Assembly: GCF_002902985.1 (NCBI RefSeq)
Contig: NZ_CP026167.1
Span: 558,001-622,000, forward strand
Reading direction: 5' to 3'
Length of the DNA stretch: 64,000 bases
DNA from: Leclercia sp. LSNIH1
Lineage (GTDB): Bacteria; Pseudomonadota; Gammaproteobacteria; Enterobacterales; Enterobacteriaceae
Positions 31,383 through 39,290 of this stretch are shown piece after piece. Positions within the stretch are counted from its first letter, which is position 1, and each line of letters starts with the position of its first letter. Under the pieces are notes generated by a model. That model was not told where the DNA came from. It ran no database searches and saw only the letters and a list, made by a program, of their open reading frames with translations. A program made the position numbers and the translations under genes.

Positions 31383-31399
31383 GGGTTTATGGGGTGATG

Positions 31400-31770
31400 G
31401 GGTGAGAATATGCGGCGGGGGTGGTAGTTCCGTTCACTTTACTGCCAGTACTTCTCTGTTACACCCGCGCCGGTGAACGTGCCAGGGTGGCTCAGTCGCC
31501 ACCACCCTGGCAACCCGGGCTACCGGCAAGAAAATCGCCGCTTCGCGGATTGTTCGCCCCATCTCTGGGGCTCACCCCTTCGGGGCCAGCGCAAGCGCTG
31601 TCCAAAATTGCTCCCGGCAATTTTGTCTTCGTCTTTTTCCCTCCGGCTATCGGGTCGGGCACCAGCCTGCATCCATGCAGGCTATGCCCTCTCGGCGCGT
31701 CCATGCGCCTCGCCCCGGCCTGCGGGAAACGACTCAGCGATTTTCAGCCGGACCTGGGTGCCGCTGTAGC
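31400..31770 (+). repeat. Diverged inverted copy of the 395-bp repeat
   Basis: This stretch shares ordered blocks with the reverse complement of the 32.6-33.4 kb repeats: GTTCCGTTCACTTTAC, GAAAATCGCCGCTTCGCGG, TCCGGCTATCGGGTCGGG, CTCTCGGCGCGTCC, TGCGCCTCGCCCCGGCCT and GATTTTCAGCCGGACC. It contains an extra middle segment of roughly 75-80 bp and is much less similar overall. Open frames through it (for example 31421-31915) are not convincing genes, although short peptide blocks such as ENRRFA and ASPRP are kept in frame among the copies. Its end is at the REP at 31811. Confidence 0.7.
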
Positions 31771-31810
31771 TTTTTTACTTTCCTGTAATTTGGCCATCGC
31801 GTTAAGAAAT

Positions 31811-31843
31811 GTAGGCCGGGTAAGCACAAGCGCCACCCGGCGT
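31811..31843. repeat. REP palindrome downstream of the 148-residue gene
   Basis: GTAGGCCGGGTAAGCAC-AAGCGCCACCCGGCG, one REP unit directly after the stop of the minus-strand gene at 31845. Confidence 0.75.
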
Positions 31844-31844
31844 T

Positions 31845-32291
31845 TTACAGCAGCACGACACCTTCATCTGTGCGCAGCCAGCGCGGTGCTTTTAGCGTAT
31901 CGCTATAAAAACTGACCAGTTCCTGGAGTAAATCTCCTGCCACTCTTTCATCACTTTTTGACAGGGATTGACTGAGAAGTAGCTGTGTTAATAGCTGGCA
32001 GTAACGCCCAAGCTGATCTGCTTCCGGCTCAAAGACCGGCACGTCCAGCGGCAAGTCATCCACCGTCAGGCTCGCTTTTAAATGCTCGGGTACAGGTTCA
32101 AGCAGGGTTGGCTGAAGCAGAGCAAGACAAGCTGAAAGCCGCCCGCACAGCGCCATCTTTTGCGCCGGATCGTCGCACTCGGCCAGTACATCAACAAAGC
32201 GCGCACAGTTATCCGCCAGCGCAGTGAAATCCGTGTTGTGATCGAAGGGTGTGGTGAATAAAGAGTGAGAAAAGCTAAGGGTAGTAGTCAT
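31845..32291 (-). CDS. 148-residue orphan protein of a phage-satellite-like islet
   Basis: A soluble 148-residue protein without signal peptide or membrane segment. It is helix-rich and acidic, with repeated Leu/Asp/Glu (LADNCARFVDVLAECDD, LCGRLSACLALLQPTLLEPVPEHL, QLLTQLLLSQSLSKSDERV). I do not recognise a named family. Its general look recalls small early-operon proteins of P4-like prophages, but this is an impression from memory. Its ATG overlaps the stop of an Ash-like frame (ATGA) and it lies directly downstream of a C4/CI-like antisense RNA region. This supports a satellite-phage early-operon origin. A homolog of this gene is not at this site in E. coli K-12. Confidence 0.75.
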   Translation of the reverse strand: MTTTLSFSHSLFTTPFDHNTDFTALADNCARFVDVLAECDDPAQKMALCGRLSACLALLQPTLLEPVPEHLKASLTVDDLPLDVPVFEPEADQLGRYCQLLTQLLLSQSLSKSDERVAGDLLQELVSFYSDTLKAPRWLRTDEGVVLL

Positions 32292-32575
32292 AAGACAGCC
32301 TCTGATGAGTTAATTTGACCACCACAGAAGGGACCAACCTTACTGGTGATGGACTGAACGGAGTTGGTCCTACCGGCCTCATCAGCTACCGGCGCACCTT
32401 GCGGTGCCACCGTCCAGCCCACCATTGAGGTGTAACGGGCTGCGCGATAAAAACGAGCTTTATCACGGATGAGAATAACAGGGGACCAACCCTGACGCCC
32501 GATTTTGCAGGCGTGGCGAGAAGATACCGCTTTGCTGAGGGTGTATCAAGCGAGGCTCTGGAAGGCTGCTCGCAT
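32288..32575 (-). pseudogene. Ash-like phage protein, broken by an in-frame TGA
   Basis: Read on the - strand from the ATG at 32575 the frame gives MRAAFQSLA, then TGA at 32546-32548. It then stays open for 85 more codons (YTLSKAVSSRHACKIGRQGW ... ARYTSMVGWTVAPQGAPVAD ... GGQINSSEAVL) to a stop at 32288. The MVGW-APQGAP block and the N-terminal RHACKIGR block are what I recall of the Ash family of P4-like phages. The frame overlaps the next gene in an ATGA. No alternative start lies between the TGA and the conserved region except an ATG deep inside (TSMVGW). Another open frame over the same DNA ends WWAGRWHRKVRR, so the true product, if any, is uncertain. Confidence 0.55.
32331..32500 (-). 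ncRNA. C4/CI-type antisense RNA immunity region (seqA-seqB-seqC layout)
   Basis: On the - strand, GGTTGGTCCC occurs at about 32492-32501 and again at about 32330-32339. Between them GGACCAAC (32363-32370) is complementary to the shared 8-base core of both. A GCACC-TTGC-GGTGC hairpin (32394-32407) and a CCGG-bounded stem (32373-32392) lie next to the central block. This order matches the P4 CI RNA and the related P1/P7 C4 RNA. There, seqB of a short RNA pairs with seqA and seqC of the leader to stop the operon early. The RNA ends and promoter cannot be fixed by eye. Confidence 0.6.
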
Positions 32576-32965
32576 AACCCGAAATTAAATCTCCAGCGGC
32601 AAAAGTAGTCAGATAAGCACAACACCCGCAGCGGCTCCCTGTTCCGGCTGAAAATCGCCGAAGCGTTGACGGGAGGCCGGGGCGAGGCGCAGGGATGCGC
32701 CGAGAGGGGGCGACCTACAGGGATGTAGGATCGCCCCCGACCCGATAGCCGGAAGGAATAAGCTGAGGGCACCGCGAAGCGGCGATTTTCCTGGCCGGGA
32801 GCCGGGGTGGTCAGGGGGGCGGCGGCGAGCCCCCCTGACACGTTCACGGGTTCTGGCGCCCCAGAGAAGCATTGAACGTAAAGTGAACGGAACCGCCAAC
32901 AGAGCCGCATGTTCTCCTGCACGCACAAAAAAGCCGGGTGGCGGCTACGCCTTACCCGGCCTACG
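32571..32965. repeat. 395-bp hairpin-rich repeat, copy 1
   Basis: First of two direct copies with a 401-bp period; by eye about 13 of 395 bases differ. Internal structure includes GGGGGCGA...TCGCCCCC (about 32707-32739), GTCAGGGGGGC...GCCCCCCTGAC (about 32810-32839), an 11-bp arm GAAAATCGCCG (32650-32660) matched by CGGCGATTTTC (32780-32790), and a terminal REP (32932-32965). Its left edge supplies the ATG of the Ash-like frame. Open frames run through it on the - strand, but their coding status is doubtful. Confidence 0.9.
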
Positions 32966-32971
32966 TCCCTC

Positions 32972-33366
32972 CGCATAACCCGAAATTAAATCTCCAGCAG
33001 CGAAAAGGGCCAGGTAAGCACAACACCCGCAGCGGCTCCCTGGTCCGGCTGAAAATCGCCGAAGCGTTGACGGGAGGCCGGGGCGAGGCGCAGGGACGCG
33101 CCGAGAGGGGGCGACCTACAGGGATGTAGGATCGCCCCCGACCCGATAGCCGGAAGGAATAAGCTGAGGGCACCGCGAAGCGGCGATTTTCCTGGCCGGG
33201 AGCCGGGGTGGTCAGGGGGGCGGCGGCGAGCCCCCCTGACACGTTCACGGGTTCTGGCGCCCCAGAGAAGCATTGAACGTAAAGTGAACGGAACCGCCAA
33301 CGGAGCCGCATGTTCCCCTGTACACACAAAAAAGCCGGGTGGCGGCTACGCCTTACCCGGCCTACG
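32972..33366. repeat. 395-bp hairpin-rich repeat, copy 2
   Basis: Tandem partner of the 32571-32965 copy, beginning CGCATAACCCGAAATTAAAT and ending in the same REP just before gntU. All internal hairpins are kept. Most differences cluster in the first 60 bases and near the REP. Confidence 0.9.
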
Positions 33367-33380
33367 GTTTACGGTAGCCG

Positions 33381-39196: not shown

Positions 39197-39290
39197 AAAA
39201 AAAAGCCAGCGAGACGCTGGCTAAAATAATACTGGAAGCAATGTGAGCAATGTCGTGCTTTCAGGTTTCCGTCGTGGACTCCCTGAACGC
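39197..39290 (-). ncRNA. ryhB: RyhB small regulatory RNA
   Basis: On the - strand the 94-nt segment starts GCGTTCAGGGAGTCC and carries the highly conserved core ACCTGAAAGCACGACATTGC followed by TCACATTGCTTCCAGTATTA. It ends in a terminator stem AGCCAGCGTCTCGCTGGCT with eight T residues. This is the RyhB sRNA, which with Hfq down-regulates iron-using protein mRNAs when iron is scarce. It sits between yhhX and yhhY as in E. coli, here with a bactofilin gene on one side. A Fur box overlaps its promoter. Confidence 0.95.

Follow-up and report, generated by a model that had tools for sequence, protein, structure and literature searches.

Between yhgN and gntU, in the 64-kb stretch of DNA analysed here (the window, meaning the whole of that stretch), the minus strand carries a compact unit in which a promoter-like site is followed by a structured leader, a C4 antisense RNA and an intact 148-codon gene that starts 51 nt after the C4. 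C4 RNAs are immunity devices of phages and their satellites, and the preliminary description of this locus had read it as the antisense immunity region of a P4-like element, left stranded in the chromosome.

The C4 RNA, its boxes and the gene behind it

The central element is matched end to end by the Rfam C4 covariance model (RF01695) at 32429-32342 on the minus strand, with 68.7 bits against a gathering cut-off of 45 (E = 2.9e-11 when the whole window is searched with all Rfam families, 9.7e-13 for 2.1 kb), and the assignment to the C4 family made in the preliminary description is borne out by this search. Over 29 distinct C4s, 98.8% of the cells in the helices are paired and 18 of the 28 pairs have changed on both sides, as compared with 28-47% paired in slid controls; the alignment was made with MAFFT without structure, and the structure counted was derived from the same sequences. 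Direct reading agrees with the earlier account of the boxes: two copies of GGTTGGTCCC, at 32491-32482 (box A, or seqA) and at 32339-32330 (box C, or seqC, 5′ of the ribosome-binding site), flank one GGACCAAC at 32370-32363 (loop B, or seqB), so that the order along the minus strand is GGTTGGTCCC, GGACCAAC, GGTTGGTCCC. The C4 loop has an exact 8-nt complement in both boxes of the same predicted transcript, and a search of the 64 kb for the B-to-C pattern GGACCAACN{18,34}GTTGGTCC gave a single match, with 0 of 100 shuffles containing it. Folding recovers the small hairpins reported near the central block and places the cores of boxes A and C each in a hairpin loop. The box A hairpin (32479-32494, minus strand) was also matched in a scan for terminator-like structures, that of box C is unremarkable when taken alone (z -1.56; 15 of 200 shuffles fold equally well), and the whole leader folds better than its own shuffles (z -3.67), with box A pairing loop B in cis in the predicted structure. 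Judged from the letters and the covariance model, a C4-family RNA at 32342-32429 (minus strand) whose loop B would be able to pair with boxes A and C is well supported.

Upstream of the C4, the unit begins with a sigma-70-type promoter-like site, TTGATA-17-TATCTT (32521-32549, minus strand; 9 of 12 matches in a consensus scan), which was absent from the preliminary description. The scan found one such site against a mean of 0.5 in shuffles, and in 39 of the 54 rows with loop types of the close subfamily the best-scoring site is a TTGNNN-17-TANNNT-like one, at -118 to -141 from the C4. It is followed by an isrK-like leader RNA segment (32449-32514, minus strand), with two hairpins in 32476-32514 (z -2.75), whose match to RF01394 reaches 44.5 bits, below the cut-off of 50; a c4-a1b1 match, likewise 5′ of the C4, is weak and also below its cut-off (23.9 vs 46.7 bits). 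The interval from box A to the C4 holds an A/U-rich hairpin (32443-32467, minus strand; fold z -3.59) that is missing from the C4-less alleles described below.

A 45-codon Ash-like frame (32288-32425, minus strand) starts inside the C4 and ends in an ATGA over the start of the 148-codon gene; the frame end and the gene that the preliminary description had pointed out are both in the list of open reading frames. The first ~40 residues of this frame match phage regulator PHROGs (phrog_4908, E 4.9e-8). The overlap is that of an Ash/Icd-type coupled leader frame, yet it lacks conservation in relatives, where 3 of 85 rows have an ATGA overlap with the family gene (the count being limited to frames that begin with ATGG close to the 5′ end of the C4), and translational coupling via the Ash-like frame was therefore rejected as a general feature.

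The 148-codon gene itself (31845-32291, minus strand) is preceded by a ribosome-binding site, AGAGG (32299-32303, minus strand), and in most rows listed a GGAGG-like sequence is found 5′ of the start. With few exceptions, the family rows place the start codon 47-56 nt beyond the C4; in the orthologue of G009, no standard start codon occurs up to 130 nt from the C4. The product is a 148-aa acidic protein with a pI of 4.37 and without marked hydrophobicity (GRAVY 0.08), for which Pfam, PHROG, NCBIfam and PADLOC gave no match. Weak scattered matches of its aligned relatives in Pfam, PHROG and NCBIfam, one weak PADLOC match from the four relatives tried, and profile matches of the family in the PDB were all judged spurious. 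Relatives are nonetheless numerous, 288 by a first protein search and 868 by a profile search, and the best 120 of each set are named "hypothetical" or "uncharacterized" protein. The acidity is uniform, with a pI of 4.2-4.85 in 63 of 63 family proteins, a set from which four non-family rows and proteins of 130 aa or less had been dropped. Downstream of the gene stands a REP-like hairpin (31815-31841, minus strand; fold of 31808-31846, -18.7 kcal/mol, z -2.82), a possible terminator with no U-run after it, which the terminator-like scan did not list.

C4-gene units across the genus and their addresses

A census collected 122 C4s in 34 of 36 genus genomes, 121 through a filtered search, whose filters can lose weak ones, and one, in G008, as a weak match to our own C4 model R1; one of the 121, in G022, falls below Rfam's cut-off. 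Since the window's C4 and 30 from the filtered search were the 31 sequences behind R1, later R1 matches are not independent of Rfam. Most of these RNAs, 95 of the 122, precede a member of the 148-aa protein family (profile search of the next 1000 nt), with 73 of the proteins scoring above 60 bits and 22, some of them partial, between 34 and 50 bits. The remainder comprises 16 P4-like C4s and 11 others, three of which have a P4 CI/Kil match. Seen from the side of the protein, 51 of the 74 family matches in G000-G023 lie within 800 bp of a C4, as compared with 0.11 expected under uniform placement.

These C4s recur in three settings, namely P4-like satellites, islands with HTH and integrase genes, and pairs without a match to the queries used, the last being the commonest and including the window's own. 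The integrase check relied on a few queries that miss other integrase types, and an integrase of another type, seen with Pfam, does adjoin one unit of the query-negative group (L087). In the island setting an HTH gene and integrases come after the family gene, and the E. coli islands adjoin tRNA-Asn or tRNA-Thr; HTH, integrase-domain and integrase matches were found at L078, L081, L086, L178, L179 and L214. Four records, from islands or plasmids, show a 4-nt overlap between the stop of the family gene and the start of an HTH gene, and the one overlapping HTH gene tested is PF13693 (HTH_35). The best characterised mobile relatives seen are these tRNA-borne islands with an HTH_35 gene and integrases, and not P4. 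Plasmid records also carry relatives, one of them among phage tail genes. The window has neither an overlapping HTH gene nor an integrase match. Across the taxonomic family, the protein family occurs in 76 of the 295 genomes sampled and in 42 of 154 genera (E 1e-15), just 1 of 50,697 phage records has it, and a narrow pattern located it on one viral contig. Within the genus it occupies many chromosomal sites, with up to 8 gene matches per genus genome, and 12 in G235.

Several units deserve a separate mention. G000 has a tandem pair of C4-gene units (L091 5992-8146), 1.5 kb apart and of different loop types. A divergent subfamily with the loop ACGCCAA, which is also the loop of most of the 22 weak-scoring census units, is represented at L092 9856-10405, between genes that we take to be clpS/clpA-like and aat-like. 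Other copies in the window's genome adjoin orphan type VI Hcp genes (L090 11110, L093 8184-9031, L094 11340, L089 8247), one of them together with a gene for a Tlde1-domain protein. Across G000-G023, at least 7 of the 74 family matches, four of them in G000, have an Hcp gene no more than 5 kb away, where uniform placement would give 0.93. We did not use this link, because the count is a lower bound from the Hcp genes listed and the window's copy is not one of the seven.

What varies most visibly among the units is the loop, and with it the boxes. In the rows compared, a cognate box A stands 5′ of the C4 in 85 of 85 and an exact 7-nt cognate box C directly 3′ in 80 of 85 (two loci, L067/L175 and L073/L182, were fetched twice and are counted as such), while non-cognate types match in 14 (box A) and 9 (box C) of 935 tests, some of them owing to overlapping loop types; as the loop types had been picked from earlier box matches, the test is not blind. 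When no types were fixed beforehand, 113 of the 122 genus C4s proved to have a triple of at least 6 nt; the loop types number at least 12. Coordinated changes are also seen among the orthologues between yhgN and gntU, where the loop is GGACCAA in G000, G009, G016, G018, G025 and G028, with matching boxes A and C, and AGGCTAA in G004, G011, G023 and G026, with both boxes changed in kind. Unless pairing is under selection, or recombination has exchanged the leader as a whole, triple changes of this sort are difficult to account for. The GGACCAAC type is probably the older at this site, since it is also the type of the C4s at the same place in two genomes of other genera (G226 and G319).

Addresses can be shared within a genome: three distant-family units of G000 have TTCCTAC. 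Pairs with the same address within a genome are fewer than in permutations when all C4s with a triple are taken (20 of 214 vs 32.6, P 0.006), and in the close subfamily they number 1 of 20 vs 3.8 (P 0.076). We treat avoidance of equal addresses as suggestive only and set it aside, for orthology confounds the comparison and the sharing in the distant subfamily contradicts it. None of the 16 census C4s classed as P4-like has the window's loop type. A viral contig (L276 1671-1754) does have a C4 with GGACCAAC and matching boxes, the sole positive of 80 stretches tested with the C4 model out of at least 120 matched in the loop-type scan. The preliminary description had suggested that the RNA may still act in trans on infecting satellites; any such action on an infecting element would need the same loop type, and on this basis trans immunity is possible.

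Orthologues, selection and an inversion between yhgN and gntU

An open 148-family gene occupies the yhgN-gntU site in 11 of the 36 genus genomes, window included, and a broken one in 4 more. The other 35 genomes thus divide into 10 with an open copy, 4 with a broken copy, 14 with both flanks and no detected copy, and 7 in which gntU lies outside the fetched stretch, further stretches of these holding no C4. The arrangement is not confined to the genus: G226 and G319, from other genera, repeat the order yhgN, C4, gene, gntU, their C4s having the window's loop and their genes 70 and 64% identity. The 11 open copies, a set picked for open frames, have a median dN/dS of 0.134 (range 0.054-0.242), as compared with 0.016 for gntU and 0.011 for yhgN. 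The dS of the gene (median 0.72) is close to that of gntU (0.53) and correlated with it (rho 0.58, over 55 non-independent pairs), which fits the prediction of vertical descent. Read from these sequences, the gene bears the marks of vertical inheritance and of purifying selection on its open copies.

In the window the conserved unit (31811-32587, minus strand) is inverted relative to its orthologues, a feature likewise absent from the preliminary description. Comparison of window positions 31383-33380 with 11 orthologous loci by blastn gave the closest simple unit matches at 31811-32585 (G018) and 31811-32587 (G026), the other loci differing at the ends. In every one of the 11 loci compared, among them the broken G025 and the C4-less G005, G020 and G029, the gene points the same way as yhgN; in the window it is reversed. 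The unit is flanked by opposed GC-rich repeats: an arm at 31404-31785 is inverted with respect to copies at 32571-32916 and 32972-33315 (75-79% identical), of which ~300 bp, at 32571-32870, recur directly at 32972-33271 with 97% identity. These repeats are a candidate substrate and could have mediated the inversion.

The best matches of the region in the plasmid collection fall in the GC-rich repeats and come mostly from E. coli and Klebsiella records. A sub-threshold Rfam match to AaHKsRNA22 (31542-31634; 31.3 vs 39.8 bits) lies in the inverted repeat arm, and the window also holds an ordinary RyhB RNA at 39197-39262 (82.7 bits). In G023, yhgN and the C4 unit are separated, on the promoter side of the unit, by an element that encodes an arm-type integrase and a DUF3987 protein (L099 431-8469). 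In G007 the yhgN-gntU gap holds two genes that may form a defence pair, one for a DEAD helicase that includes a phosphoribosyltransferase domain and one that is DprA-like (L141 2700-5977). In G005 the gap holds an IS481-like transposase gene, identified with Pfam, and a similar frame occurs in G031 (L102 6548-7699 and L156 1569-2723).

Three orthologues (G005, G020 and G029) lack the C4, box C and the native start, while the gene is still open from a new start; they retain the promoter-like site, the isrK-like hairpin and box A. The same C4-less state is found in a distant-family copy of G034, another such copy, in G013, is also without box A, and in G012 and G017 a family match was found with no C4 in the search. 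More widely, 23 of the 74 family matches in G000-G023 have no C4 within 800 bp, several of them being fragments. That the gene is kept open without the C4 indicates that the C4 is replaceable and speaks against a strong toxin. The alleles with box A only may point to a second leader role that is independent of the C4.

A proposed leader switch and its alternatives

The arrangement has known counterparts in phages and satellites. In P1, the C4 is followed by icd and ant. The window resembles the P4 CI RNA, with its seqA-seqB-seqC order, and the C4 RNA of P1/P7 in having a C4 fold whose loop is complementary to boxes on the 5′ and 3′ sides; P4 continues with cI/kil, epsilon and alpha genes, and P4 genes have no match in the window. 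We use the P1/P7 and P4 arrangement as a precedent, in part as presented in two papers (PMC5320573, PMC4825925). One of these describes the isrK-orf45-anrP operon of Gifsy-1 in Salmonella, an antirepressor operon with a seqA-like leader (PMC4825925). Like the window, that operon has an isrK/seqA-like leader hairpin, a stable RNA 3′ of it, and a short frame that ends on the following start codon in an AUGA overlap (PMC4825925). Gifsy-1 is an inducible prophage and its gene a prophage antirepressor, whereas the window's gene stands between core genes, without relatives of known function, and its short frame is not conserved among orthologues. In Acinetobacter baumannii, Group 1 comprises many C4-like sRNAs per genome that are processed and vary in loop sequence, and the accessible part of that paper mentions no linked protein family, unlike the situation in the window (PMC5320573). 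The tRNA-Asn/Thr islands of E. coli (L081, L086, L083) share with the window the C4 followed by the 148-family gene at the same spacing, and add an HTH gene that overlaps the family gene, integrases (in L083 a fragment) and nearby cargo of the defence or Rhs kind, none of which is present at the window's yhgN-gntU site. Among the matches listed from the open-access literature, no paper dealt with stand-alone C4-controlled genes of Enterobacteriaceae.

We favour, as fairly probable, the reading that the locus is an intact stand-alone C4-controlled gene, in which a leader RNA switch governs an acidic regulator that is kept as a host gene. That several related species keep the pair at the same place makes it look like a maintained gene and not a stranded scrap of phage. 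In this proposal, a single promoter (32549-32521, minus strand) would drive a transcript whose leader holds box A, C4 and box C ahead of the coding sequence for the 148-aa acidic protein. By analogy with its phage counterparts, the C4 RNA would be cut from the leader and pair, via GGACCAAC, with boxes A and C of later transcripts, and this pairing would end most transcription early and mask the start region, blocking translation. With early stop and hidden start combined, the protein would be made mainly when the C4 is scarce. The 7-8-nt loop would serve as an address that can change. For the protein, the probable role is that of a small, acidic, antirepressor-like regulator; the uniform acidity and the 4-nt overlap with an HTH gene point to a regulator that may bind a repressor-like partner, which is the weakest step of the proposal. 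The unit would have entered the chromosome before the genus split and would now be retained as a host gene.

The origin proposed in the preliminary description, a stranded remnant of a P4-like satellite whose immunity region is decaying, with or without some leftover trans immunity, is one to which we give a low probability. The C4 family is common to P4-like satellites, as the 16 P4-like C4s and the three others with a P4 CI/Kil match attest, 4 of the 15 copies between yhgN and gntU are broken, and action on an incoming element with the same loop is chemically plausible. However, tblastn with the P4 integrase, alpha, epsilon, CI/Kil, ORF88, ORF106 and ORF151 (thresholds, E 1e-6 and 40% of the query) gave no match in the whole window, nor in the fetched orthologous loci with a C4 except for G023, where the integrase-bearing insertion is separate and lies 5′. 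The preliminary description had noted no integrase, replication gene or tRNA attachment site, and no tRNA lies anywhere in the 64 kb. Further findings speak against the P4 origin: the site is orthologous in several species and two other genera, the open genes are under purifying selection, the box switches are coordinated, and the window's loop is absent from the 16 P4-like C4s of the census. Because of the orthology, the purifying selection and the missing P4 genes, we rejected a P4 remnant as the main reading.

Conservation of the pair could alternatively reflect addiction or abortive defence, with the C4 as a labile RNA antitoxin and the 148-aa protein as a Kil- or Icd-like inhibitor, an explanation that we regard as unlikely. 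It draws on the Kil of P4 and the Icd of P1, both encoded just 3′ of C4-type RNAs, on the multi-copy state, patchy presence and loss that are typical of such pairs, and on the deficit of same-address pairs. That deficit, however, was obtained from permutations that leave orthologous sites with fixed loop types uncorrected, and units of the distant family share an address. Three orthologues and a distant copy keep an open gene without the C4, which is hard to accept for a toxin, and the proteins, at ~148 aa, acidic and without marked hydrophobicity, differ from the small hydrophobic toxins of type I systems (148 aa, pI 4.37 and GRAVY 0.08 for the window's protein). Least probable of the explanations considered is a selfish dispersed unit, a C4-gene pair of ~775 bp that spreads by itself or hitchhikes with islands and whose conservation between yhgN and gntU would be incidental. 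The many sites in the genus, the high copy numbers (8 per genus genome at most, 12 in G235), the tandem pair in G000 and the carriage by islands would all fit it, but most copies have no match to the integrase queries nearby, the one adjoining L087 being of another type, and a long stay at one site with a dN/dS of 0.134 also speaks against it.

Beyond the single locus, a leader switch kept as a host gene invites a broader and more tentative idea, which we consider possible though on balance doubtful: a phage immunity RNA may have become a standing host regulatory family, in which dozens of C4-gene pairs with exchangeable 7-nt addresses form parallel switches for one acidic protein family, some alleles doing without the C4. 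Of the 122 C4s in the genus, 95 are followed by a member of the one unnamed protein family, and several species retain the copy between yhgN and gntU. Should the predicted action of the RNA hold, this would be a host-adopted antisense switch, whose natural sets of matched address changes would lend themselves to the study of shifts in specificity, and, if true, many "hypothetical proteins" of Enterobacteriaceae would gain a regulatory setting.
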